Source: Arcobacter suis CECT 7833
Lineage (GTDB): Bacteria > Campylobacterota > Campylobacteria > Campylobacterales > Arcobacteraceae
Length of the DNA stretch: 64,000 bases
Assembly (NCBI RefSeq): GCF_003544815.1
Contig: NZ_CP032100.1
Coordinates: forward strand, 1,860,001-1,924,000
Direction of reading: 5' to 3'
The translations under genes were made by a program, and so were the position numbers. Below, in pieces: positions 45,756 to 61,238 of the stretch (within the stretch, counting starts at the first letter, position 1; the number at the start of each line of letters is the position of its first letter). The notes beneath the pieces are model-generated. The model was not told the DNA's origin. It searched no databases and saw only the letters and a program-made list of their open reading frames with translations.

Positions 45756-46144
45756 GGGGAAGTCCTGGCTTCGATTGGAGTGTTTCGGTTTTAGTTGCAT
45801 GTCGGTATGAGCATATCGTTAAAAGGCTCAAAAATGTTTAAATGCAAACAATACAAATTACGCACCTCAAAGGGTAGCAGCTTAATTGCTCTACCCCCGC
45901 TCTCTGAATAGAGGCGGGTGTTGCTTCACCTACAGATTATTCTGTTAGAGTAGGATTCGAAGTATAACAAACAAACAGATATATCTTAATTATTATCTTT
46001 TAAGTTAAGACTAACGCATAAAAGACAGTTTTATTAAAGTTTAATTGTACTTTTCTAAAATTAAATCGAACAATTAAAAAAGCATGTATAGATATTAAAG
46101 TCAAGCATTTTAAGACACGGGTTCGACTCCCGTCTTCTCCACCA
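45756..46144 (+). ncRNA. ssrA: tmRNA (transfer-messenger RNA)
   Basis: Rescues stalled ribosomes and tags the nascent chain for proteolysis. The 5' end GGGGAAGTCCTGGCTTCGAT pairs with the 3' CTTCTCC to form the acceptor stem, and the gene ends GGTTCGACTCCCGTC...CCACCA with a T-arm and encoded CCA. The tag reading frame at 45844-45885 gives ANNTNYAPQRVAA then TAA. Campylobacterota tags usually start A(N/V)N and end in -AKAA or similar, so this one has an unusual -QRVAA end. The T-arm/acceptor 3' end is a classic integration site, and an integrase gene follows 200 bases downstream. Confidence 0.97.
45844..45885 (+). other. tmRNA tag-peptide reading frame
   Basis: Thirteen codons plus TAA, resuming at GCA: A-N-N-T-N-Y-A-P-Q-R-V-A-A. 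The terminal VAA keeps a hydrophobic residue plus two alanines that ClpX-type recognition needs. Confidence 0.9.
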
Positions 46145-46257
46145 ATACTTTGTTCTATGTTATTCTATAAATACCACAGAACCTCCCATTTATCGATTAT
46201 CTTAAATTTTATTTGTTCGTCTTTGTTCGCAAGTATTCAACTAAATTCTCAACTTTA

Positions 46258-46324
46258 TGTTACTCTTAATGTTACTCTATTATAATTTTTATGTTACTTT
46301 TGATTTTTCATAAAATAAGTAACA
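46258..46324. repeat. Four copies of heptamer TGTTACT, probable integrase arm sites
   Basis: TGTTACT occurs at 46258-46264, 46270-46276 and 46292-46298 in direct orientation and inverted (AGTAACA) at 46318-46324, between the ssrA 3' end and the integrase start. Just before this, TTTGTTCG is repeated at 46212-46219 and 46222-46229. Short repeated arm-type sites beside attL are typical for tyrosine integrases. The rest of the 200-base gap (46145-46346) shows no gene. Confidence 0.5.
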
Positions 46325-46346: not shown

Positions 46347-46619
46347 ATGCCCAAAGTAGTTACACCTTTAAATGAAAGAAAAATTATAAATGCAAAACCT
46401 AAAGAATCAAATTACACTTTAACAGATGGAAATGGTTTACAATTATTAATAAAATCATCAGGTGTAAAAATTTGGGAATTTGTTTTCACTTCTCCAATAA
46501 CCAAAAAAAGAAGAAAAAAGACTTTTGGTAGTTATCCTATTATTACCTTAGCAAAAGCAAGAACATTAAAAAATGAATACTTAACTCTTATATCTAATGG
46601 TATAGACCCTGTTGAATGA
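46347..46619 (+). pseudogene. Tyrosine integrase, N-terminal fragment cut by an IS
   Basis: About 90 residues of the DUF4102 (P4-type integrase N-terminal, arm-binding) domain: KIINAKPKESNYTLTDGNGLQLLIKSSG, then KKRRKKTFGSYPIITLAKAR. The frame ends after GIDPVE because the IS end (TGATCC...) supplies the stop TGA at 46617-46619. The catalytic domain (R...HxxR...Y) is missing and is not found elsewhere in the window. Position 203 bases after the ssrA 3' end fits an integrase of an ssrA-targeting element. An AAGGATA ribosome site precedes the ATG. Confidence 0.9.
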
Positions 46620-46676
46620 TCCGGCTACACTAATTCATACTTGGAATTTAAAAACTTCTAAGTTAAAATAATAAGT

Positions 46677-47955
46677 ATGAAAGAAGTAGAAAAAATGAGA
46701 AATAGTAAATATACTAAAGAGTTTAGAGATGAGACTGTTCACTTAATTTTGAATAGTAAAAAGTCAGCAATGCAAATTGCAGCATAGAACGTAGCGTTAG
46801 CAAGAAAAGATCTTGGAATAAATGATAAAACAATTTATAATTGGATTAAAGTTTATAAAAAAGAGAATAATATAACAACTCCTATTGATGAAACTAAAAA
46901 TCAATCTAAATCCTCACAACAAGAATTAGTGGCTGAACTAAAACAGCTACGAGCAGAGAATAAATTACTCAAACAAGAAAGAGATATTCTAAAAAAGGCA
47001 ACAGCATACGCAGCATTTGAAACTCTATCAAAGTATGCTTGGATAAAAGAGCATAGAAAGAGTTTCAATATAAAACTTATGTGTAAAGTTTTTAAAGTTG
47101 ATAAAAGTAGCTATTACAATTGGGTTAAAAATGGTTGTGTAATTCAAAAAGTTGATGAGAAACTTAATGAACTAATTGAAATAATATTTCTTCAATCAAG
47201 ACAAACATATGGTACAAGAAGGATAAAAGATAAACTTCTTGAAAGATATGGTGTAATAGTTTCAAGAAGACGAATTAGAAATATTCTAAAACAATTAGGA
47301 TTGTTTGTAAAAATGAAACGAAGATTTAAAGTTATGACAACAGATTCAAATCATAATTTACCAATAGCTCCCAATATTTTAAATAGAGATTTCTATGCTT
47401 CAAAAGTTGATGAAAAATATGTAGGCGATAGAAGTATTAATAAAAAGATATTAAATATATCTTTTTATTAATACGCGTTATATTCCAACAAGTGAAGGAT
47501 GGTTGTATCTTGCAACAGTTATTGATTTATATTCAAGAAAAATAGTTGGTTGGAGTATGGATGAAACAATGAAAGTTTCACTTGTAAATGATGCTTTAAA
47601 GATGGCTCTTATTTCAAGAAATCCAGAAAAAGGACTAATTTGGCATACAGATAGAGGAAGTCAATATGCTTCTTATGAACATAAAGATTTACTCAAAAGA
47701 CATGGAATAATTCAAAGTATGAGTCGAAAAGGGAATTGTCATGATAATGCAGTTGCAGAAAGTTTTTTCCATACATTAAAAACAGAATTAATCCATCATG
47801 AAATTTATCATACAAAAGAACAAGCAAAAAGATCAATATTTGAATATATAGAAGTGTTTTATAATAGAGAAAGAAGTCATAGTGCAAATAACAATTTATC
47901 ACCAGTAGAGTTTGAAGAAAAACAAAAATTGTTACAAAAAGAAATTGCTGCTTAG
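46677..47955 (+). pseudogene. IS3-family transposase OrfA/OrfB, copy 1, interrupted
   Basis: OrfA starts at 46677 (KYTKEFRDETVHLILNS) but hits TAG at 46785-46787, after which the same frame continues with a normal helix-turn-helix and leucine-zipper (LKQLRAENKLLKQERDILKK). The extra C at 47029 fuses OrfA to OrfB in frame. OrfB then reads to 47471, where a 41-bp palindrome supplies the stop TAA directly after the first DDE aspartate (KYVGD). The remaining DDE core continues as a separate frame (47503-47955) with [10 protein letters not shown] and [13 protein letters not shown] (second D and E). The transposase cannot be made as one chain. Confidence 0.9.
47434..47474. repeat. 41-bp palindrome inside the IS transposase, copy 1
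   Basis: Arms GTATTAATAAAAAGATAT (47434-47451) and its exact complement (47457-47474), 5-base loop. It lies between codons for VGD and for TRYIPT, which are adjacent (VGD-ITYIP type) in intact IS3 transposases, so it is an insertion. The same palindrome is in copy 2. Confidence 0.85.
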
Positions 47956-47995
47956 GGATTATAATTTCTGAGTATGTTTTAGGGTTGACAGATCA

Positions 47996-48365: not shown

Positions 48366-49301
48366 TTAATTCAAAGCTAATTCTTCTAAAATCATTTCTA
48401 TATTTGGATTCTTTTTGATTTCATATGGAATAGTTTTTATAGAGAAATCCATATTTCTAATGTGCTCATCAAAATATGAAAAAATTTTATCATCGGTATC
48501 TATCATAATACTATTTCGACCTTCTTCAATACAAACTCTTCCTGTTGTTCCTGAACCGCCAAAAAAGTCTAATACAGTAGAGCCTTCATATGATAAACCT
48601 CTTACAAATCTTCTTATCAGTTCTATAGGTTTTTGAGTAGGATGTCCAACTCTTTCTTTTGAATTTCCATTTAATCTACCTATTTCCCAAACATTAGTAG
48701 GATTTTTTCCTTTTTCAATATTTTCTGGTATTAGTCTTTTATCCCTCAGAGCAGCTTTCTTTTGTTCTTCTGCATATGGAACACGTACAGAATCTAAATC
48801 AAAATAATATTTCTTAGTTTTACTAAGCCAAATTGCTTCTTCATGCCTATTTGCAAAAAATCTGTGAGCAGACATACCATTTTTATAATACCAAATTACA
48901 AGGTTAACAAATCTAAGTTTTGTATGATGTCTTGTATAATGAAGAACTTCAAGTAAATCACCTTTCTTTAAGTCTTGGTACTGAAAGCCACCAAATATAA
49001 CACAATTTCCTGTATCTGATAAAATTCTAAAAATTTCATCTAACCATTGTTTTGCCCATTCTAAATAATTATCATATGTATCCCAATAATCTAAATCTAA
49101 GTTATATGGAGGATCAATTAATATTAGTTGAACAGATGAATCAGGAATTTTCTTAAGAAATTTCACAGAATCTTCTGTAAAAATTGCATGTATTGTTTTT
49201 TTTGGTGACTCATTTTCTATGTGTGAACTATGTTTCTGTCCATCTTTTTTTAGCTTGTTTAAAGCAATATGCCCTTTGTTGAAATGTGATTTATTAGCCA
49301 A
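48366..49301 (-). CDS. DNA methyltransferase, beta-class (N6-adenine or N4-cytosine)
   Basis: 311 residues. The catalytic motif IV LILIDPPYNLDLDYWDTYDNY (DPPY) comes first and the SAM-binding motif I VLDFFGGSGTTGRVC near the C-terminus, the order of beta-class amino-methyltransferases. GHPTQKPIELIRRFV is the usual motif X. All key residues are intact. It is the second gene of a two-gene operon: its start overlaps the helicase-nuclease gene by 8 bases. It is probably the protective modification partner of that protein. Target sequence and methylated base are not readable from sequence. Confidence 0.93.
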   Translation of the reverse strand: MANKSHFNKGHIALNKLKKDGQKHSSHIENESPKKTIHAIFTEDSVKFLKKIPDSSVQLILIDPPYNLDLDYWDTYDNYLEWAKQWLDEIFRILSDTGNCVIFGGFQYQDLKKGDLLEVLHYTRHHTKLRFVNLVIWYYKNGMSAHRFFANRHEEAIWLSKTKKYYFDLDSVRVPYAEEQKKAALRDKRLIPENIEKGKNPTNVWEIGRLNGNSKERVGHPTQKPIELIRRFVRGLSYEGSTVLDFFGGSGTTGRVCIEEGRNSIMIDTDDKIFSYFDEHIRNMDFSIKTIPYEIKKNPNIEMILEELALN

Positions 49302-52020
49302 AAATATAATCCTTTAAATAATAGTCTTCTGTTAAGAAGTTTTTTCCAAAAAGTGTTTTTAGTTTAATTTCATCTTCATCTGAAAATCTATTAACTCTAT
49401 TTTCGATAAAATCTTTTAAATTTTTCATTCTTTCGGTTGTTAATTCTAATGGTTCATCTTGATTAAATTTTAAAGTTGAAGATGTAGCATAAAAAATTAA
49501 AACTTCTACTTCTTGTGTAGTTTGTTTTATTATACCAAGTGATTCCAATAAATTAAATAAAAATGGTACTCTCCTAACTATAACGTCTTCAGTAGGCTCT
49601 TTTAATCCATTCATTTCACAAAATTGTTTAACTTCTGTATGTTTAAAAAATGATTTATATATTGTCTGTTTGGGAATGTTTTTTGACCTATTAACTCTGT
49701 AAAGATAATTTAGAAGTAAAGATAGTGCATCCATATTCAAAAATAAGTTTCTTATATATTGTAAGTTTTTAGAATCAGATTTTAGAAAGTCAAATATTTC
49801 TGTGTTAATCTTATTTAAACTTTCTATACCACTGATAGTTGAGATATCCCATGAAATTTCTTCTGATGCACTAAAAGTAAATGATTTTTCTTTCAAATAA
49901 TTCTCAAAAATCTTATATAGTTTTTCTCCTTCCTCTGTAAAGGAAATTATAAATTCATTTTCTAAACTACTCCCTCTAAAATCTAAAATTATTTTTAATT
50001 CCATTAATGCTTGTAATTTATACTTAGTTTGTCTTTGAAATCCACCAAGAGAACCACTATCATAAGCTCCATTAAATTTGATATATTTTGGTGCTAAATA
50101 ACTTGAGTCGAAATTCTTTTCACCTATATTTTTTAATAGATATAGCACATGACGCATATCTACGCCTTGTGGGAAATGATAGCTAAACTCTGTATGTTCA
50201 TTAATTTTCTTTAAAAAACTACCCCATGAACCAAACATTGATAAATATCTACTCATTTTAAATTCACCAAATTGATTAATATCATCTGGTGTAGGTTTTC
50301 TTTTTAATGATTCTTTTAAATTATAATATGCAACTATTAAATCATTTTCTTCTATATCTAAAAAGCTTAAATCTTGAGAATCTAAAATTTCTTCAACTTC
50401 TGCATCAAATTTTACATTACATTTTGGAGAATATATATATTCTATTTTTTCAATTCTACCATTTCCACCATTTCTAATTTCTTTTGATTTACCATCTGAT
50501 AAATAAGTCCTAATTTTACTTGCTTTCTTATAATTTGTAATAAAATCAAGTACAGTAACATTTTCTTTTGAATTACATAGTCTTAATCCTCTTCCGAGTT
50601 GTTGGAGGAAAATTGTTTTAGATTCTGTTGGTCTTAGAAACAATAGGACTCTTAAATCAGGAAAATCAATACCTTCATTAAACAAATCTACAGTGAAAAT
50701 TACAACAATCTCATTGTTTGTAAATTTATTAATGACTTCATCTCTATTTTTTGATTCAGATGTTAGTGAAACAGAAGGTATACCTTTTTCATTAAAAAAC
50801 TTTGCCATGGCGTTTGCATGTTTTATTGAACAACAAAAACCAACAGCTTTATTCGCTTTTCCTTTTTCAATATATTCTTCATAAATTCTTTGATTTCTTT
50901 CTGGAATAATAAGATATTTATTTAGGTCATTGATATTATATCTTGCTCCATTGTATTTAATTTTTGAATAGTCAATGTTGTCTTTAAGTCCATAATAATT
51001 AAATGGTACTAAAAAACCATTGTTAATTGCATCAAACAATGTGTATTCAAAAACTTTATTATAATCAAATAATTCGAATATATCTTTTCTATCCATTCTG
51101 TCAGGAGTTGCAGTCAACCCTAACATAAAAAATTTTGCTTGAAAATATTCTAAAATAATTTTATAAGAAGGTGCTTGACCATGATGTACTTCATCAACAA
51201 TAATATAATCAAAATAATCATGCACAAAACTTTCTAATATATGTGATGTATTTAATGAATCTTTAGAAGCAAAAAGTATTTTTGAATTATGTAAATTTTC
51301 TTTTACTTCTCCTGTTAATATCCCTATCTTTTCATTTGGATAAACTTCTTCAAAAGCATTTTTAGCTTGTTTCAATATATCTAAACGGTGTACTATAAAA
51401 AGTATTTTTCCATCAGACTTTAATGTATCAAAAGCAGATAAATAAGTTTTTCCAGTTCCAGTAGGTAACACCACTATACCTTTTTTCCAATTATTTTTTC
51501 TACATGCGTCTAATGTTTCTAAAACTTCTTTTTGCAGATAATTAGGATTTATGCTTACATTACCTAATAGTGTAGGTTCTTGTTTTTTTATAAGATATTT
51601 TATACTATCTAATACTTTTTTTCTCCATAAATCAGATTGTAGCTGTGTAAAAGAAAACCTTAAAAGCTTCCATCCTGCTGATAATATTTCATTTTGTCTA
51701 AATAAACTATCATCAAACATATCGCTTGTAATAGCTCCTTCTGCATGGTACGTTTCACCATCAATCTCAAATGCTAACTTTGTGTTGTTATAAATTAATC
51801 CAAAATCTAATCTTCTTGACTTACCCTCTGAGTCTATAAATGGATACTGAGGTACTAAGTATTTAATAAAAGTTTCTCCTAATAATGGATATATGAAGTC
51901 TGAAATAAAAAGTTTTTCACTTTCTTGTGTTATTTGATGTTTATAATAATCGAGATACTCATCAAGAGTAACCTTTTCTAAGTCTATTAATTTATTTTCC
52001 CATGATATTGTATTTGACAT
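49294..52020 (-). CDS. Vsr/DUF559-type nuclease fused to SF2 helicase, restriction-like
   Basis: 908 residues. N-terminal about 40-150: endonuclease-like domain of the DUF559/Vsr group (FEIDGETYHAEG ... FRQNEILSAGWKLLRFSF), with the acidic D/E residues of a PD-(D/E)xK-like core. From about 165: ResIII-type SF2 helicase (COG1061-like) with VLPTGTGKTYLS (Walker A), IIVDEVHHG (DEAH-like box), LGLTATPDR (motif III) and QQLGRGLRL (motif VI). The last about 330 residues are unassigned, possibly target recognition. Overlaps the downstream methyltransferase by 8 bases. In type III enzymes the nuclease follows the helicase; here it precedes it. Restriction of unmethylated DNA is the likely role. Confidence 0.87.
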   Translation of the reverse strand: MSNTISWENKLIDLEKVTLDEYLDYYKHQITQESEKLFISDFIYPLLGETFIKYLVPQYPFIDSEGKSRRLDFGLIYNNTKLAFEIDGETYHAEGAITSDMFDDSLFRQNEILSAGWKLLRFSFTQLQSDLWRKKVLDSIKYLIKKQEPTLLGNVSINPNYLQKEVLETLDACRKNNWKKGIVVLPTGTGKTYLSAFDTLKSDGKILFIVHRLDILKQAKNAFEEVYPNEKIGILTGEVKENLHNSKILFASKDSLNTSHILESFVHDYFDYIIVDEVHHGQAPSYKIILEYFQAKFFMLGLTATPDRMDRKDIFELFDYNKVFEYTLFDAINNGFLVPFNYYGLKDNIDYSKIKYNGARYNINDLNKYLIIPERNQRIYEEYIEKGKANKAVGFCCSIKHANAMAKFFNEKGIPSVSLTSESKNRDEVINKFTNNEIVVIFTVDLFNEGIDFPDLRVLLFLRPTESKTIFLQQLGRGLRLCNSKENVTVLDFITNYKKASKIRTYLSDGKSKEIRNGGNGRIEKIEYIYSPKCNVKFDAEVEEILDSQDLSFLDIEENDLIVAYYNLKESLKRKPTPDDINQFGEFKMSRYLSMFGSWGSFLKKINEHTEFSYHFPQGVDMRHVLYLLKNIGEKNFDSSYLAPKYIKFNGAYDSGSLGGFQRQTKYKLQALMELKIILDFRGSSLENEFIISFTEEGEKLYKIFENYLKEKSFTFSASEEISWDISTISGIESLNKINTEIFDFLKSDSKNLQYIRNLFLNMDALSLLLNYLYRVNRSKNIPKQTIYKSFFKHTEVKQFCEMNGLKEPTEDVIVRRVPFLFNLLESLGIIKQTTQEVEVLIFYATSSTLKFNQDEPLELTTERMKNLKDFIENRVNRFSDEDEIKLKTLFGKNFLTEDYYLKDYIFG

Positions 52021-52310: not shown

Positions 52311-52913
52311 CTAGATTTTATTTCTAATCCAACTTCTTAAAGAAGGTTGAGTGCCAACACCAATGTACTTAACTATCTTTTGAACAGATAATCCAAGTTT
52401 ATATAGTTCTTCGATTTTATCTTTATGTTCATCATACATTGATTTTACTATTTGACCTTTTTGTCTTCCAAGAATTTTTCCTTTTGCTCTTGCAACTGCT
52501 AATCCTTGTTTTGTTCTCTCACTTATTATTTCTCTCTCTGTTTGAGCAAAATATCCATAAATAGAAATTAGTAAATTTGATAGAGCGGAATTATCAGTTG
52601 AAAGTTCAGGTTGATTTATAAAAATTAGTTTTATATTCTTAGAATTAAATTTTTCTATTAGATTTAAAATCTCTAACATATTTCTTCCAAGTCTTGAAAG
52701 TTCTGTTACAACTAAAGTATCATTAGCTTCTAATTTCAAAAATAAATCATCAATTAATCTTTCTTTTTGATTTTTTCTACTTGATACTTCAACTTCTATA
52801 AAATCTTCAATTTGAATTTTTTTATTAAATGCAAATTCTAAGATTTTATGTTTTTGATTTTCTAAAGTTTGTTTATCTGTAGATACTCTGATATAAGCAT
52901 AATATTTACTCAT
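52311..52913 (-). CDS. Serine recombinase (resolvase/invertase)
   Basis: 200 residues. The catalytic domain opens YYAYIRVSTDKQTLENQ with the nucleophile Ser in RVS, followed by LVVTELSRLGRNMLEIL (conserved Arg) and the helix E region EREIISERTKQGLAVARAKG, then a short HTH at 160-195. This is the Hin/resolvase size class. It lies immediately inside IS copy 2 (33 bases), reading away from the IS end. It could act on the element's own DNA, for example resolving cointegrates or inverting a segment; no paired res or hix sites were found. Confidence 0.93.
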   Translation of the reverse strand: MSKYYAYIRVSTDKQTLENQKHKILEFAFNKKIQIEDFIEVEVSSRKNQKERLIDDLFLKLEANDTLVVTELSRLGRNMLEILNLIEKFNSKNIKLIFINQPELSTDNSALSNLLISIYGYFAQTEREIISERTKQGLAVARAKGKILGRQKGQIVKSMYDEHKDKIEELYKLGLSVQKIVKYIGVGTQPSLRSWIRNKI

Positions 52914-52986
52914 TTTTACCTCTTATAAGTTTAATCCTAATGATTATGATCTGTCAACCCTAAAACATACTCAGAAATTATAATCC

Positions 52987-54264
52987 CTAAGCAGCAATTT
53001 CTTTTTGTAACAATTTTTGTTTTTCTTCAAACTCTACTGGTGATAAATTGTTATTTGCACTATGACTTCTTTCTCTATTATAAAACACTTCTATATATTC
53101 AAATATTGATCTTTTTGCTTGTTCTTTTGTATGATAAATTTCATGATGGATTAATTCTGTTTTTAATGTATGGAAAAAACTTTCTGCAACTGCATTATCA
53201 TGACAATTCCCTTTTCGACTCATACTTTGAATTATTCCATGTCTTTTGAGTAAATCTTTATGTTCATAAGAAGCATATTGACTTCCTCTATCTGTATGCC
53301 AAATTAGTCCTTTTTCTGGATTTCTTGAAATAAGAGCCATCTTTAAAGCATCATTTACAAGTGAAACTTTCATTGTTTCATCCATACTCCAACCAACTAT
53401 TTTTCTTGAATATAAATCAATAACTGTTGCAAGATACAACCATCCTTCACTTGTTGGAATATAACGCGTATTAATAAAAAGATATATTTAATATCTTTTT
53501 ATTAATACTTCTATCGCCTACATATTTTTCATCAACTTTTGAAGCATAGAAATCTCTATTTAAAATATTGGGAGCTATTGGTAAATTATGATTTGAATCT
53601 GTTGTCATAACTTTAAATCTTCGTTTCATTTTTACAAACAATCCTAATTGTTTTAGAATATTTCTAATTCGTCTTCTTGAAACTATTACACCATATCTTT
53701 CAAGAAGTTTATCTTTTATCCTTCTTGTACCATATGTTTGTCTTGATTGAAGAAATATTATTTCAATTAGTTCATTAAGTTTCTCATCAACTTTTTGAAT
53801 TACACAACCATTTTTAACCCAATTGTAATAGCTACTTTTATCAACTTTAAAAACTTTACACATAAGTTTTATATTGAAACTCTTTCTATGCTCTTTTATC
53901 CAAGCATACTTTATAGAGTTTCAAATGCTGCGTATGCTGTTGCCTTTTTTAGAATATCTCTTTCTTGTTTGAGTAATTTATTCTCTGCTCGTAGCTGTTT
54001 TAGTTCAGCCACTAATTCTTGTTGTGAGGATTTAGATTGATTTTTAGTTTCATCAATAGGAGTTGTTATATTATTTTCTTTTTTATAAACTTTAATCCAA
54101 TTATAAATTGTTTTATCATTTATTCCAAGATCTTTTCTTGCTAACGCTACGTTCTATGCTGCAATTTGCATTGCTGACTTTTTACTATTCAAAATTAAGT
54201 GAACAGTCTCATCTCTAAACTCTTTAGTATATTTACTATTTCTCATTTTTTCTACTTCTTTCAT
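52987..54264 (-). pseudogene. IS3-family transposase OrfA/OrfB, copy 2, interrupted
   Basis: Same disabled layout as copy 1: OrfA start at 54264, internal TAG after MQIAA, OrfA ending at the TAA of CTATAA (normal OrfA/OrfB overlap, since the extra C is absent here). OrfB is split by the palindrome at 53468-53508 after the first catalytic Asp, and the rest of the DDE core lies at 52987-53439. OrfB would need the usual -1 frameshift as well as passage through TAG and the hairpin stop. Confidence 0.9.
53468..53508. repeat. 41-bp palindrome inside the IS transposase, copy 2
   Basis: Same arms GTATTAATAAAAAGATAT and complement as in copy 1, at the equivalent place after the first DDE aspartate. 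Confidence 0.85.
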
Positions 54265-54372
54265 ACTTATTATTTTAACTTAGAAGTTTTTAAATTCCAA
54301 GTATGAATTAGTGTAGCCGGATCAAGATAAGATGGGAACTATCTCTTAAACAGCGAAAGGAAAATAAAAACA

Positions 54373-54543
54373 ATGAGCAATTTTTTGAGAATAGTAAAAG
54401 TAATGAAAAAAATAGGAATAGCAAAAAGTACAATTTGGCTATGGGTTGGTGAAGGCAAATTTCATAAACCTATTAAATTAAGTCCTAGAATTACAATTTG
54501 GGAAGAAGAGAAAGTTGATAATAGGATGAAAGAAAAGTTATAA
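54373..54543 (+). CDS. AlpA-family small DNA-binding regulator
   Basis: A 56-residue protein starting MSNFLRIVKVMKKIGIAKST, with the AlpA helix-turn-helix pattern: V-K-x-G-I-A-K-S-T-I-W-L-W-V-G-E-G-K-F, then KPIKLSPRITIWEEEKVD (K..K-L-x-P-R-x-x-x-W). AlpA proteins control the integrase of P4-type elements and act like excisionase regulators. It fits the DUF4102-type integrase fragment at 46347, from which it is now separated by the 7.7 kb IS-bounded segment. A GAAAGGA ribosome site lies before the ATG. The 48 bases between IS copy 2 and this gene could hold the last codons of the integrase, but I cannot prove it. Confidence 0.85.
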   Translation: MSNFLRIVKVMKKIGIAKSTIWLWVGEGKFHKPIKLSPRITIWEEEKVDNRMKEKL

Positions 54544-54568
54544 AATATTTTATGATATAATTGTCACT

Positions 54569-54868
54569 ATGAATAAAAATGAAATCTTAAACAAATTAAA
54601 AGAACTAAAACCAATATATCAAAATGAAGGCTTAGAAATACTTGGAGTATTTGGAAGTTATGCAAAAGATACAAATACTGAATATAGTGATATTGATATA
54701 GCTTATAAATTAGATTATGAGAAATTTTCTAAGAAATATATTGGTGGTTTTTCTAAAATATTAAGAATAGATGAAATAAAAGATGAATTAAAATCTGTCT
54801 TTAAAAAAGAAATTGACTTCGTATCTGATTCAAATAAAAAAATCATTAAAGATTTAATATATGTCTAA
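54569..54868 (+). CDS. mntA: MntA-like nucleotidyltransferase antitoxin
   Basis: 99 residues, minimal nucleotidyltransferase fold. VFGSYAKDTNTEYSDIDIAY gives the GS-x10-DxD catalytic motif exactly. A third Asp is plausible at IDFVS. MntA antitoxins add AMP groups to HEPN toxins and block them. Its 3' end overlaps the HEPN gene by 8 bases, the normal arrangement. Sits just after the alpA-like gene in the element. Confidence 0.92.
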   Translation: MNKNEILNKLKELKPIYQNEGLEILGVFGSYAKDTNTEYSDIDIAYKLDYEKFSKKYIGGFSKILRIDEIKDELKSVFKKEIDFVSDSNKKIIKDLIYV

Positions 54869-55214
54869 AGCAATAAATAGATTAAATAAAATACTAGATG
54901 CAATTGAAGATATTGATTTTATTATAAATGATAATAATCTAAAAATTACTCAAGCAATTAATGATAAAATCATAAAACCTGCAATTAGAATGAATATTAT
55001 AAGAATTGCAGAACAATTTTCTAAATTAAAAGATGATAATGAATTTAAGATATTAGAAAATTTTTCAAATGATGATTTAAAAGGTATTAGTGCAGTAAGA
55101 AATTATATTGCTCATGACTATGATAGTACAGATGATAATATCATAGAAGAAGTAATAAGATATAACTTAGCTATTTTTAAACAGACTATTTTAGATATAA
55201 AAAAAGAATTTTAA
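54861..55214 (+). CDS. hepT: HepT-like HEPN toxin
   Basis: 117 residues, all-helical HEPN/DUF86-like protein. The ribonuclease motif Rx4HxY is in AVRNYIAHDYDST. The tyrosine is the residue that MntA modifies in the studied pairs. Overlaps mntA by 8 bases, so both come from one transcript. Such modules kill or arrest the cell when the antitoxin is lost and often stabilise mobile elements or act against phage. Confidence 0.92.
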   Translation: MSKAINRLNKILDAIEDIDFIINDNNLKITQAINDKIIKPAIRMNIIRIAEQFSKLKDDNEFKILENFSNDDLKGISAVRNYIAHDYDSTDDNIIEEVIRYNLAIFKQTILDIKKEF

Positions 55215-55297
55215 AACTTTACAAATTTAAAATTATAGAGTACTTTTTAGGGGTATATTTAATTTAGTAATCCTATAAATCCTAATATATAGGAATC

Positions 55298-55321
55298 TTC
55301 AATCCTGCAAATCTCCACCAA
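55298..55321 (+). other. Candidate far attachment site: tRNA-3'-end-like sequence
   Basis: TTCAATC-CTGCA-AATCTCC-A-CCA has the exact spacing of a tRNA 3' half (T-loop 7, T-stem 5, acceptor 7, discriminator, CCA). It ends in TCTCCACCAA, identical over 10 bases to the end of ssrA plus its next base (46136-46145). No 5' half of a tRNA is found before it. It lies directly past the MntA/HepT pair, where the element would end. Outside the 10 bases the match to ssrA is weak (15 of 24). The remainder of 55215-55488 shows no gene. Confidence 0.4.
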
Positions 55322-55488
55322 CCTATTTAAAAACCTTATATAATGGGACTTATAGACACTTTACAATGTAGATTTCAATCAAAACTTAAGCTTATCAAAT
55401 GATAATTTGTTAAATAATAAAAATCATCACTTATTTTTACTCCTAAAACTTACGAATAAGTTTTTTCTTTTTTTATATGCAACTTCAT

Positions 55489-57732
55489 TTAACCAGTTTC
55501 ACTCTCTTTTTCTTGTCGTTCTGTTGTTGTGATTGCATATGTCTTTCCATCTTTATCTACTAAAGCACTAGAAATAATATGAATATCTATAATAGAACCA
55601 TCTTTTTTTAAGCGATTTGTTTTGTATGTTTGAAGTATTTTTGAACTGCAAAGTTGAGCTATTTTTTTGGTATCTTTTTCTTGCAACTCTTTTGGTATTC
55701 TATCTTTTGATTGCATTTTAAGGGCTTCTTCTTCACTCCATCCATAAAGTTTTTGTGCTCCTGGATTCCATGCAATAATTTTCCCACTTAAATCTTCAAC
55801 AATAATAGCATCACTTGAATCACGCACTACGATTGCTAAACGAGAAAGTTTATTTAATTCGTTTAATTTTATTTTTATATTATGCATCTCTGTTATATCC
55901 ACAAAAGATATAACAGCACCTTCTATTACATTTTCTAATGTACGATAAGGCTGAATTCTCATCAGATATGATTTTGTATCAATTGTCATAACTTCAATCT
56001 CTTTAGGAACCAAGGTATCAAGAACACTTTGAATATCACTAACTAAACTTCTATAATCAATCATATTAGATACAATATGCCCAATAGGACGTCCTATATC
56101 TGCTAAAATTAAGTTAATAATACGAGTAACAGCTGGAGTAAAACGTAAAATATTAAGCTTATGATCTACAAAAATAGTTCCTATTCCTGTTCCTGCTAAA
56201 AGATTATTCATATCATTATTTGAACGAGATAGATCTGTGACTTTTATATTAAGTTCAGAATTAACAGTTGATAACTCTTCATTAACTGATTGTAACTCCT
56301 CTTTTGAAGTTTCCAACTCTTCATTTGTAGACTGCAACTCTTCGTTCATTGATTGTATCTCTTCATTGTAGGACTTTAATTTTTCATTTGCATCTTGTAA
56401 GAATGATTTTTGAAGTTGAAGTTCTTGTTTTAGTGATTTTATGTTTATATTTTCATGTAAAAATTTAGTATCAACGTCATCAATAATTGGAAGATTTTCT
56501 TCAATAATTTCTTCTTTAGATGTAGATAAATCTTCTTGAATAAGCACAAGATATAAAGGCAGTTCTTGTTTAAATTTTAAGTTGAGATTAATTTCTCGTA
56601 TAGTTATATCAACTATAATAAAACTTTCATTTGTTTTAATTTTCAATCCATATGTATGCACAATTTGTTTTTTACTTTTTGCTTTTTGAAAGCTAAGTAT
56701 TAAATCATTTTTCAAACCCTCTTTAGCCATTTTAAAAATATTATTTGTATCTATTTCTCCTGAGGGTAATTCAAGATACATTCCTGCTTTTCCTTGTATA
56801 TATAAAATATCTCCTTGCTCATTTACAAGTACAGCTGATGGAGCAATTTGTTCAAGGATTGCATTTTCAATTAGTTCTCTAAGGGGTAGTTTTACTCCCG
56901 CTGTTAATTTATTTATTTGAGGTATAGAGTTATATCTTTGATTTGAGGGAAGAAGTCGACTTAACATAGTTGTTTTAATATTATTATGATCTTTTTGGCA
57001 TTCAAAAAGTTTTGATTTTGCGTCTATTACAGTATAAAGATTTTCAAGTTCACCTAAAGTCTCTGAATTGCCAAGAAGAAGAATCCCTTTTGTTTTTAAA
57101 GCATAATGAAAAATAGAAATGATTTTTTGTTGCAATTGAATATTCATATAAATCAATAAATTACGACAACTTATTAGATCTAGTTTTGAAAATGGTGGAT
57201 CTTTAATAACATCATGTACAGAAAAAACAAGCATATCTCGAATGTTTTTATCTATTCTATAACTATTTCCATCGCTATTTTTTATAAAAAATTTTTCTAA
57301 TCTCTCTTTTGAAACATTAGAATCTATACTCAAAGGATAAATACCAGCTCTTGCAGTTGTAATTGCTGTTTCATCTATATCAGTGGCAAAAATTTGTACT
57401 ACAAATCTCTCTTTTATTTTTTGCATATATTCCATTATAAGTATAGCTATAGAATAAGGTTCTTCTCCTGTTGAACAACCTGTTATCCAAACTCGTATTA
57501 TAGAATCTGATGATTTATCTAAAAAAAGTTTTGGAATAGCATTTTTTTCTAAAGAGGCAAAAACCTCTTCATCTCTAAAAAAACTTGTTACTCCTATTAG
57601 TAAATCATTAAAAAGAGTAGTAACCTCATCTTTACTTTCTTTTAAATATTCATAATATTCTTCAATAGTGTCAATTTTATTTACAACTAAACGACGCTCA
57701 ATTCTTCGTCCCATTGTACTTGGCTTGTACAT
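55489..57732 (-). pseudogene. CheR methyltransferase-PAS fragment of a CheB/CheR fusion
   Basis: 747-residue open frame. The CheR methyltransferase part (to about 270) has FFRDEEVF, VWITGCSTGEEPYSIAI (SAM binding) and DLISCRNLLIYM. A long coiled coil (QSMNEELQSTNEELETSKEELQ) and two PAS domains follow (second: IIAWNPGAQKLYGWSEEE), ending abruptly at ESETG. The first ATG has no ribosome site. Upstream codons in the same frame read KKIFLLLESQTSHDFS, the standard CheB-CheR linker, so the true gene was a CheB/CheR fusion whose CheB part is broken (separate entry). Expression as an intact protein is doubtful. Fusion proteins of this kind sometimes continue into a kinase; none is here. Confidence 0.8.
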
Positions 57733-57744
57733 TGAAAAATCGTG

Positions 57745-58190
57745 GCTAGTTTGACTTTCTAATAATAAGAATATTTTTTTAAAATCTCTTCATCATAAGT
57801 AACTATAGGAATTATCGTTTGTATTTTTATATTAGAGTTTGAATACTTTATAATCTTTTTGGCCATCTCATTTGGAGCTAAGATTTCATCAATTATACCT
57901 GTTGCTATTGCACTGCTTGGCATTGCTTCAAAATCAGAAGAGTTAATACTTTGAGCGATGACAAAACCATCTACTGCTTTTATAGCTTTTAGTCCTTGAG
58001 TTCCATCATGTCACATTCCTGATAAGATTATACCTATGGCTTTATTTTGTTTATCAATGGCAAGGGAATTAATTGGTAAATGTAGTCATTTTCTTTTAGG
58101 AAGTTTATCAAGATAAAGAATTCCTTCTGATAGTTTCATATCATAATTTGGAGGGATGACATATACACAGTTTTTTTCAAATATCACTTG
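57745..58190 (-). pseudogene. CheB methylesterase remnant with two stops and a frameshift
   Basis: Minus-strand translation gives NCVYVIPPNYDMKLSEGILYL, KLPKRK*LHLPINS, AIGIILSGM*HDGTQGLKAIK and AMPSSAIATGIIDEILAPNEM, clear CheB catalytic-domain sequence. Two TGA codons stand where glycines (GGA) are expected, one of them in the GMGHDGT catalytic motif. A run of seven A (plus-strand T at 57774-57780) shifts the frame by one just before the CheR part. The N-terminal half of CheB is missing. Upstream to 58320 only a 46-codon frame of no recognised kind is seen. Confidence 0.85.
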
Positions 58191-58442: not shown

Positions 58443-61238
58443 TTAGAATTTCAACACATATTTTGCTGAAACTACATTATTACTAAAATCTTTTCCTTGT
58501 CCTTGGTAATCATATGATACATTGATATTATTTGTTTTATTTATATCCATTTCATATCCAATTCCAGCTTCATACGACCATCTTCCATTATCTATTCCAT
58601 CTGTCCCAAAGTTAACTCCTGTTGCTCCTTCATAAGCTGAAGTTACAGTTTGGTTTTTATCATGTAAATCATATCCTACATTTAAATTTCCAACTATTTT
58701 TGAATCATCTGTTAATTTATAATGTGCTAATGTTCCGAACCCTACAATTAAATCACTTGATGTAAATTTATCAACATTTAAATTTAGTGCATCTGCTCCA
58801 GTTTCATTATATGCTGGATTTGTAAAATGTCTATATGTTGTATTTACTAATGGTTGTAATAATAAATCTTTATTTACATTCACATCTCTCATTAATTTTA
58901 AATCTAAAGATGCTGTTTTACTTGTATATTTTGATTCTGCTATATCTCCTGTAAACACTGCTCTATCTGTTTGTGTTTTTTGCCAAGCGTATCCAGCTTG
59001 ATACAAGAAGTTTGTTTTATCATCTATTACAGGTACATTTCCATATATTAATGTTGTAAATACATCTAAATCTGCGTTTTGATTCATATTATTTACATCA
59101 ACATTTCCATTTGTATAGAAAAATGCCAATCCTAATTTTTGGTTGTTTTTATATTCTGTATCTGCTCCAAATCCTAACCCATATGTTTTTAAATCAAATC
59201 CATTTATACCATCTTTATCATTTTGAGAACCAATTGATCCAAATGGTTTAATCCAAAGATTATTTTCACTAAACATTCCATCACCTGAGTTCATACCACC
59301 AGAAGAAATATTTGCATTTTGTCTTTGAGTTACTATTCCTGCAATTCCATTTGAAATTTGCGTTGTTGCTCCAACTGTTGCACTTGTTGCTACAGGAGTT
59401 GTACTTTGAGTTGCATTTGCAACTGCACTATCTGTTGAAAGTTTATTAAATGCGCTTTGTATTGCTAGATTATTATTATAAACATTTTGTAGTGCTACTG
59501 CCGCATTTTGTGAGTTTTGATTTCCATTACCTGCTATTGTTGATGATACTATTGTTTTATCTGTTCCATCTTCATTACTAGCTTTTACTACATCTAAATG
59601 AATTGCTCCGGCTTCTTCATTTATCCAGTCATCTGAAGTTTTATATTCAAAATTCAGTAAAGCAGAATTATCTGTTACATTTAATTTTCCATTTATTGTC
59701 AATGCTGTACTCGCTGTTACTACATTCTCTAGTCTTTTTCCTGCTAATAATGATTGATTTGTTGAACTTTTTAATACATTTACATCTAATGTTGAACCAT
59801 TTTCAAATATTGCACTTTCTGTAGTTAATTGTGAATAAGTTGTTCCATTTAGTGTTCCATCTGTTTTTAATCCAATACTCAATTTAGCATTTTCGTTATT
59901 TGTAAAGTTTTCGATATTAGCGCTATCTTCACCAGTTGCATTATATGCTAATTCAATTGTTCCTATATTTGCAACTGAACCCTCCACTTTCATATTACCT
60001 TTTAGAGTCCCACTGTTAATTACAGTACTAATGATATTTAATGAATAAGCATTTCTATCTAGTTCATCATTTATATATGCTTCTATAGTACCATAATTTT
60101 CAATTCTACTTATTCTTCCATCTATGCCAGAAGCACGATAATAACCATAAATATGATTTATGTTTTTTATTTTAGCATTTGCTGTGATTGTTCCTTCATT
60201 TATAATTTCAGAATTATTACTTTCAGCAGTATCTCGGTTAACATGAATAGCTTTTGCAAGAACCTCACCATAATTATATGAATTAGTATCTGCTAATACT
60301 TTAATTTCTCCTGTGTTATTGATTGAAGAATTCTTAAAATCATCCTCTATTTCGATACCATATGCTAACACCTCTTCTGAGTCTTGTGTAGCGATTGTTG
60401 TTATATTCATCGAACCAGTATTAGTATTGTTAATTGTCGAATCTGTTATTATTCCTTCAACATATATACCATAAGCTTCACTATTACTACTAATCTCAAA
60501 AGTGCCATTGTTTGTTATAGTTGAATTGTCAAGATTTATCATAGAAGTATCATCTGACATACGATTTACAACATTAGACCTAATACTCATATAAATACCA
60601 TAAACATTTGGAGTATTACCACCTGCACTAGAGACAATGATATTTCCATTATTTATAATTTGACTATCTATTACTAAATTATAAAGAGAAATACCAGCAA
60701 CATTATTTGTACCACTAACTTTGATACCATAGTCATCTTGACTAGAATTGCCAATATTCATAATCATACTCATACCAAAATTATAATCACTAATCTCTGG
60801 GTAATTAGTGAAACCAAATGCATCACCGTTTCTATTTTCTACATTTAATTTATCAAGATTAATGGTTATTTTCTGAGTATCATTATCTTTATCATATGAT
60901 GCTAAATTATAAATGATAATTCCATTTATAGAGTGAGCTTCTCCCATAGCAGAAATATTACTTCCATTTATTGATAATATATGCTTATTATAGCCATTTA
61001 CCTCAAAAGCAGAACTATCTGCAACAGTTAAATTTTCTATAATAAAAGAGCTACTGTCTTCCATATTTTCATTATAATATGATGTATTACCAGTTACTGA
61101 TATAGGAATAGAAGGAGTTGCATTTACCACTGTTACTGTTCCCATAAGCATTGTACTTATAATAAGAGAAATTTTTCCACCTTTTAGGATTCGGAATCTT
61201 GATTTAAAATCAATATTATCTATATATCTACTAAACAT
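58443..61238 (-). CDS. Autotransporter (type Va) surface protein
   Basis: 931 residues. An extended N-terminal signal region (LKGGKISLIISTMLMGTVTVVNA, cut near residue 40) is followed by a passenger of about 600 residues rich in Asn, Thr and Ser with repeated short INNTG/ITNNGT-type motifs, typical of a beta-helix. A C-terminal beta-barrel domain of about 280 residues ends in ...VVSAKYVLKF with the terminal aromatic residue needed for outer-membrane insertion. The passenger has no protease or other catalytic motif that I see, so adhesion is the most likely role. Stand-alone transcription; a two-component pair reading in the same direction lies 135 bases upstream. Confidence 0.92.
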   Translation of the reverse strand: MFSRYIDNIDFKSRFRILKGGKISLIISTMLMGTVTVVNATPSIPISVTGNTSYYNENMEDSSSFIIENLTVADSSAFEVNGYNKHILSINGSNISAMGEAHSINGIIIYNLASYDKDNDTQKITINLDKLNVENRNGDAFGFTNYPEISDYNFGMSMIMNIGNSSQDDYGIKVSGTNNVAGISLYNLVIDSQIINNGNIIVSSAGGNTPNVYGIYMSIRSNVVNRMSDDTSMINLDNSTITNNGTFEISSNSEAYGIYVEGIITDSTINNTNTGSMNITTIATQDSEEVLAYGIEIEDDFKNSSINNTGEIKVLADTNSYNYGEVLAKAIHVNRDTAESNNSEIINEGTITANAKIKNINHIYGYYRASGIDGRISRIENYGTIEAYINDELDRNAYSLNIISTVINSGTLKGNMKVEGSVANIGTIELAYNATGEDSANIENFTNNENAKLSIGLKTDGTLNGTTYSQLTTESAIFENGSTLDVNVLKSSTNQSLLAGKRLENVVTASTALTINGKLNVTDNSALLNFEYKTSDDWINEEAGAIHLDVVKASNEDGTDKTIVSSTIAGNGNQNSQNAAVALQNVYNNNLAIQSAFNKLSTDSAVANATQSTTPVATSATVGATTQISNGIAGIVTQRQNANISSGGMNSGDGMFSENNLWIKPFGSIGSQNDKDGINGFDLKTYGLGFGADTEYKNNQKLGLAFFYTNGNVDVNNMNQNADLDVFTTLIYGNVPVIDDKTNFLYQAGYAWQKTQTDRAVFTGDIAESKYTSKTASLDLKLMRDVNVNKDLLLQPLVNTTYRHFTNPAYNETGADALNLNVDKFTSSDLIVGFGTLAHYKLTDDSKIVGNLNVGYDLHDKNQTVTSAYEGATGVNFGTDGIDNGRWSYEAGIGYEMDINKTNNINVSYDYQGQGKDFSNNVVSAKYVLKF

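Follow-up and report, generated by a model that had tools for sequence, protein, structure and literature searches.

A probable scar left by two integrative elements at the ssrA 3' end in Arcobacter suis

The cryptic prophage CP4So of Shewanella oneidensis resembles the locus described here in its P4-like integrase at the 3' end of ssrA, its AlpA (there the excisionase) and its toxin–antitoxin and restriction-modification genes; in the excerpted account of that prophage, overproduction of AlpA led to excision and deletion of alpA abolished it (PMC5148205). A second likeness is to the genomic islands at ssrA in Dehalococcoides, among which older islands are reported to decay (PMC3146451). Oenococcus prophage integrases are comparable in that their N-terminal variants reportedly differ in the arm repeats that accompany them at a single attachment site (PMC8074189). 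Toxin–antitoxin pairs are reported to stabilise islands (PMC8978831), and MntA is reported to adenylylate the HepT RNase; the Shewanella HepT/MntA pair SO_3166/SO_3165 (type VII), like the pair described below, consists of neighbouring HEPN and MNT genes with the motifs RX4HXY and GSX10DXD, whose definitions we took from the excerpts of that report (PMC7641770). Tandem ssrA islands, AlpA excisionases, stabilisation of islands by toxin–antitoxin pairs and integrase arm specificity are already known, as far as the excerpted sources go (PMC5148205, PMC3146451, PMC8978831, PMC7641770, PMC8074189, PMC6379469, PMC5495459). The titles and abstract openings of the literature searched contain no description of ssrA islands in Arcobacteraceae.

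We analysed a 64 kb stretch (the window) of the Arcobacter suis CECT 7833 genome (G000; 2.64 Mb, single contig). ARAGORN and Rfam RF00023 place ssrA on the forward strand at 45756–46144, its final 24 bases (46121–46144, +) forming attL. Arm repeats follow at 46256–46302 (+), with TGTTACTCTTAATGTTAC at 46258–46275 and a third copy near 46291–46299, and then an integrase stub at 46347–46619 (+) that matches the integrase of G012 at 60% and comprises the arm-binding domain (PF13356) only. The C-terminal part is missing, as a first-pass annotation of this DNA had stated: no match to it was found in the other copies of the insertion sequence (IS) that cuts the gene or in the rest of the genome, where integrase matches are confined to the stub and a further N-terminal fragment at 122 kb.

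On the far side of the IS-bounded DNA, positions 54325–55321 had been read as the right part of an ssrA-integrated element, with its boundary at the end. We built a right-end profile from the last ~105 bp of the right ends of ten other genomes, with the window excluded. Run with nhmmer against the 64 kb window, this profile gave a single match, at 55222–55319 (+; E 4.5e-12), which covers the arm repeats (about 55232–55259) and attR; the reversed control gave no match at E ≤ 1. Across 60 ssrA-downstream stretches (826,012 bases) it found 14 right ends, distributed over 13 stretches and including the ten of the training set, along with weaker matches to class I left arms (classes are defined below). 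DNA matches of several relatives end at or near window positions 55313–55321, and the aligned right ends have a common arm, AGGGTACTTTTTAGGGGTA, ~50–60 bp to the left of the core. Because a profile built without the window matches it once, and never matches in the reversed control, the right boundary at 55320/55321 is real, and the reading of this DNA as a bounded right part is borne out. The attR core itself, the best 24-mer being CTTCAATCCTGCAAATCTCCACCA, lies at 55297–55320 (+), one base off the 55298–55321 first assigned to it. Its supposed likeness to the ssrA end held in part: it agrees with the tail of the window's own ssrA at just 14 of 24 positions and with the best tail of the family at 21 of 24. 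The low figure would suit a chance resemblance unrelated to integration, a reading that we find scarcely credible in view of the profile match, the empty reversed control and the distance from the HepT stop to the core end, which is 106 bp in the window, in G092 and in G093b (119 bp in G090). Relatives with names that carry such right ends are Poseidonibacter ostreae, P. lekithochrous and an Arcobacter sp. MAG, all Arcobacteraceae.

The gene order in this right part is as first proposed, with AlpA (54373–54543), MntA/HepT (54569–55214) and the tmRNA-3'-end-like sequence in succession. A conserved leader (54326–54372, +) precedes alpA; together with alpA it is 91% identical to G029 over 236 bp. 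The overlooked 56-residue ORF (+) is confirmed as an AlpA (PF05930, E 4e-9; 36.6 bits, above the gathering score of 21). It has T changed to I, P to H and W to R at positions that are uniform in all ten other aligned copies, which fits decay, and the gene looks to be decaying; against G029, dN is 0.068 and dS 0.283. The proposed toxin–antitoxin pair is likewise supported. The candidate MntA nucleotidyltransferase antitoxin (54569–54868, +; PF01909, E 7e-9; PF18765, E 2.8e-9) and HepT HEPN RNase toxin (54861–55214, +; PF01934, E 6.8e-10) are encoded by ORFs that overlap by 8 bases and, as adjacent PF01934 and PF01909 genes, correspond to a Class I HEPN/MNT (type VII) toxin–antitoxin system. MntA keeps GSX10DXD, as GSYAKDTNTEYSDID, and HepT keeps RX4HXY, as RNYIAHDY. 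The NCBIfam equivalog cut-offs of 60 bits were not reached (38.4 and 25.8 bits), so that motif and Pfam family, and not the NCBI naming rule, make the predicted pair a type VII relative. Comparison of MntA with G001 (dN 0.034, dS 0.213) and of HepT with G068 (dN 0.091, dS 0.836) gives low dN/dS, indicating that the predicted pair is kept under purifying selection beside a putative excision gene in decay.

In other right ends, the slot between AlpA and attR varies: it holds a zeta-toxin relative in G064b, Fic pieces in G059 and a nucleotidyltransferase-like pair identified by reading, with no Pfam match above cut-off, as well as several MntA/HepT (slots of G064b, G099, G093b and G059). In G029, HepT is truncated. 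MntA was considered as a core gene of these elements and rejected: among eight genome-collection loci, three have a class I right end and five do not, and many loci had been chosen by similarity to the window region, so that they give no fair estimate of its frequency at right ends. Phage records contained no match to the region; plasmid records gave nine weak ones, only to the nucleotidyltransferase part.

The DNA between stub and right part is bounded by two copies of an IS3-family element. The first (46617–47995, +) cuts the integrase and has a broken transposase; the second is inverted (52947–54325, −). The genome contains five copies of the IS with 99–100% identity, and the second half of its transposase scores 205.1 bits against NF033516, above the cut-off of 160. 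Both window copies, and those at L002 and L007, share an identical upstream stop in the transposase and a long palindromic insert that breaks the frame. Between the copies lie genes for a DNA methylase (48366–49301, −; PF01555), a ResIII/helicase protein (49294–52020, −; PF04851) and a serine recombinase of the resolvase/invertase kind (52311–52913, −; PF00239). Copies of the recombinase gene (52311–52946) at 92–93% are present in G008, G014 and G019 with a common flanking motif, as if it were a small mobile unit. Starting at the very point where the IS begins in the window, G019 has another sequence upstream of the recombinase, and the motif recurs beside the copies in G014 and G008. By eye, no target duplication was visible at any of the five IS copies, nor when the outer and inner flanks were matched crosswise. 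Because target duplications are absent and the resolvase beside the right IS is naturally preceded by other DNA in a relative, the segment cannot be cleanly subtracted. The methylase/helicase/resolvase block is a rearranged insert whose removal restores no ancestral element, contrary to the first-pass annotation. That annotation had also ascribed the loss of the integrase C-terminus to an IS event; the loss is plain, and the five copies bear no target duplication that would identify the IS as its agent.

Elements at ssrA bear repeats beside attL and before attR, and these are of three kinds, which we labelled by eye, before the arm-domain tree, as class I (AGGGTACTTTT), class II (ACGGTAATCTTTACGGTA) and class III (ATGATAC/ATGTTAC). 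The arm-domain classes of the integrases at ssrA go with distinct repeats beside both attachment sites. The kinds are resolved in a 22-row tree of the arm domains of the integrases, with values of 95/94 for class III plus G002, 98/97 for class II and 99/94 for class I. The window stub falls in the 95/94 clade with both other class III integrases (G012 and G093a) and G002. A default label of class I for G063 was dropped, as both its place in the tree and its left arm are those of class II. In G012 the TGTTAC arm is present at either end of a ~43 kb element, and CACATCTCCACCA follows the right arm.

The two ends of the window locus differ in class: the stub and the left repeats (ATGTTAC) are class III, and the right end (AGGGTACTTTT) is class I. 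We aligned left and right arms locally and compared the scores with those of shuffles, using eight control elements with both ends known. Six controls scored above shuffles (p ≤ 0.023), and G053 and G002 failed; the window arms scored 18 against a shuffle mean of 20.3 (p 0.87). The left arm of the window scored best with the right arm of G012 (37), and its right arm with the class I left arm of G060 (46). Of the 12 class I integrases, 10 had a left arm that the class I right-end profile recognised, three of them only at E 0.05–0.1 and with G053 and G031 missed; it recognised the left arm of none of ten other integrases, the window among these. In a whole-genome search for a class III right arm, the pattern was present only at the left end of the window; two one-mismatch matches lie at 809 kb. 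Since the integrase class and left arm are III and the right arm is I, the stub and the right part most likely derive from different elements, and not from the single element of about 1.5 kb that had been proposed.

The mismatch of arms is no proof of two elements by itself, because two of the eight controls fail the arm test, and modules are exchanged between classes, since G029 has an AlpA 86% identical to that of the window beside a class II right arm. Both facts would also suit one mosaic element, in which recombination had joined the integrase end of class III to a right end of class I before integration, and which the IS segment interrupted later. We consider such a mosaic unlikely: integrase class equals arm class in tree and profile, the window ends match ends of their own class elsewhere better than they match each other, and self-integration with mismatched arms would hardly be possible.

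We therefore favour, with a probability of roughly 0.75, the reading that two integrative elements inserted at the ssrA 3' end and were later fused into a single scar. The class I element, with AlpA, MntA/HepT and attR, would be the older and would have integrated first; a younger class III element would then have used this ssrA end as well and come to lie between the gene and the class I element. Later, IS3 copies with a foreign methylase/helicase/resolvase block would have taken the place of all DNA from within the class III integrase up to a point shortly before alpA, so that only the outer left end of the class III element and the outer right end of the class I element survive. By its family, AlpA would be a former excision factor, and MntA/HepT a putative stabilising toxin–antitoxin pair. 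The remnant would no longer be expected to excise, because the catalytic domain of the integrase is absent and the arms belong to two classes.

The outer ends of the two classes stand in the order expected for tandem islands, and the inner junction of class III attR and class I attL is gone. Behind ssrA in G093 an integrase of class III is followed by an attR of that class at +6287 and by a class I integrase at +6475, and a second contig of this genome (G093b) carries MntA/HepT and the class I right end. G093 thus has an intact III-then-I order, a precedent for stacking. In the window we can only infer the stacking, since the inner junction is lost and no empty site was found (see below). According to another history, the class I element first decayed to AlpA, the toxin–antitoxin pair and attR, and the stub arrived later with the IS-bounded block. 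The stub does end exactly at the IS, and G001 illustrates such decay, with a class I element reduced to a left arm fused into a broken alpA, an intact MntA and a shortened, broken HepT. The stub nevertheless starts 202 bp past the ssrA end, within the range of +164 to +206 occupied by 18 of 21 ssrA-proximal integrase frames, and has its own left arm in place, which argues that it integrated at ssrA independently. This makes arrival with the IS block very improbable.

Empty sites were sought in 60 ssrA-downstream stretches from 58 genomes, the window's own included; the stretch of G025 was dropped because it has no tmRNA. None of the 60 joins ssrA to the right flank of the window. The CheR/PAS gene of that flank has a good match in only two of 30 other genomes of the genus (G019 and G022), in both on a different contig from ssrA. 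Genus g9, in which the right-flank gene of G053 recurs, likewise yielded no empty site. G024 was rejected as an empty site: it has a match of ~50 bp to 55402–55451, yet its TraG-like and relaxase-like neighbours, identified by reading, suggest another mobile element. The stretch 55402–55451 shows 84% similarity to the J-domain portion of a DnaJ-like gene whose end lies 128 bp past ssrA in G024, and may be a remnant of yet another element. Nor did accC serve as a guide to the site, as it adjoins ssrA in G028 and in none of 27 other genomes searched. The CheR/PAS protein (55489–57732) lacks an N-terminal part that its G019 counterpart (984 aa) has; a piece of 54 aa (57759–57923) is found upstream, and the gene looks broken.

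As noted, the attR core is closer to the tmRNA tail of other species than to that of its host. Either the element brought this core type with it or the host has since exchanged its ssrA. Species appear to exchange entire tmRNA genes: G007 and G009 have flanks that are 91–95% alike around ssrA bodies that are mostly 43–59% alike (in 75-column steps), and G009 and G017 share ssrA at 100% identity with lys1 at 86%. With little confidence, we suggest that the ssrA 3' end of Arcobacteraceae could act as a recording array of integrase-class arms, and that attR here and in G029 might resemble a tmRNA type that the hosts lost by whole-gene exchange after invasion, possibly evading integrases that target ssrA. 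If so, the class of every past visitor could be read from leftover ends alone.

A very unusual ORF was seen elsewhere in the same genome (L155:1742–3139, ~122 kb). In it, a sequence that looks by eye like a signal peptide is combined with an autotransporter beta-domain (PF03797) and with a ubiquitin domain resembling those of eukaryotes (PF00240, E 3.4e-28). Over 981 bp the DNA of its second half has 98% identity to the gene for a 931-aa autotransporter in the window (58443–61238). The ORF stands after a tRNA-Arg that is itself followed by a further N-terminal integrase fragment. The titles and abstract openings of the literature searched contain no report of a ubiquitin-autotransporter ORF.

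The scar at this locus is real, though of an ordinary genomic kind, and its history is recorded in the sequences of its ends. It illustrates how two fused islands can pass for one small element, and comparing arm repeats with the arm-domain class of the integrase offers a simple test that can be used on scars without a complete integrase. It also documents ssrA as an integration hotspot in Arcobacteraceae. In relation to the described systems, CP4So is, by its excerpted account, one element of 36 kb that still excises, whereas the present locus has two fused arm classes and has lost its integrase (PMC5148205). The Dehalococcoides islands are reported to use a serine recombinase, in contrast to the tyrosine integrases, arm repeats and AlpA of the kind found here (PMC3146451). 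The predicted MntA/HepT pair of the window is only weakly similar to the solved Shewanella pair (best E 0.0087 for HepT and 0.37 for MntA). In Oenococcus, as far as the excerpts describe it, arm specificity served for the comparison of phages, whereas in our case it tells apart the two ends of a single scar (PMC8074189).
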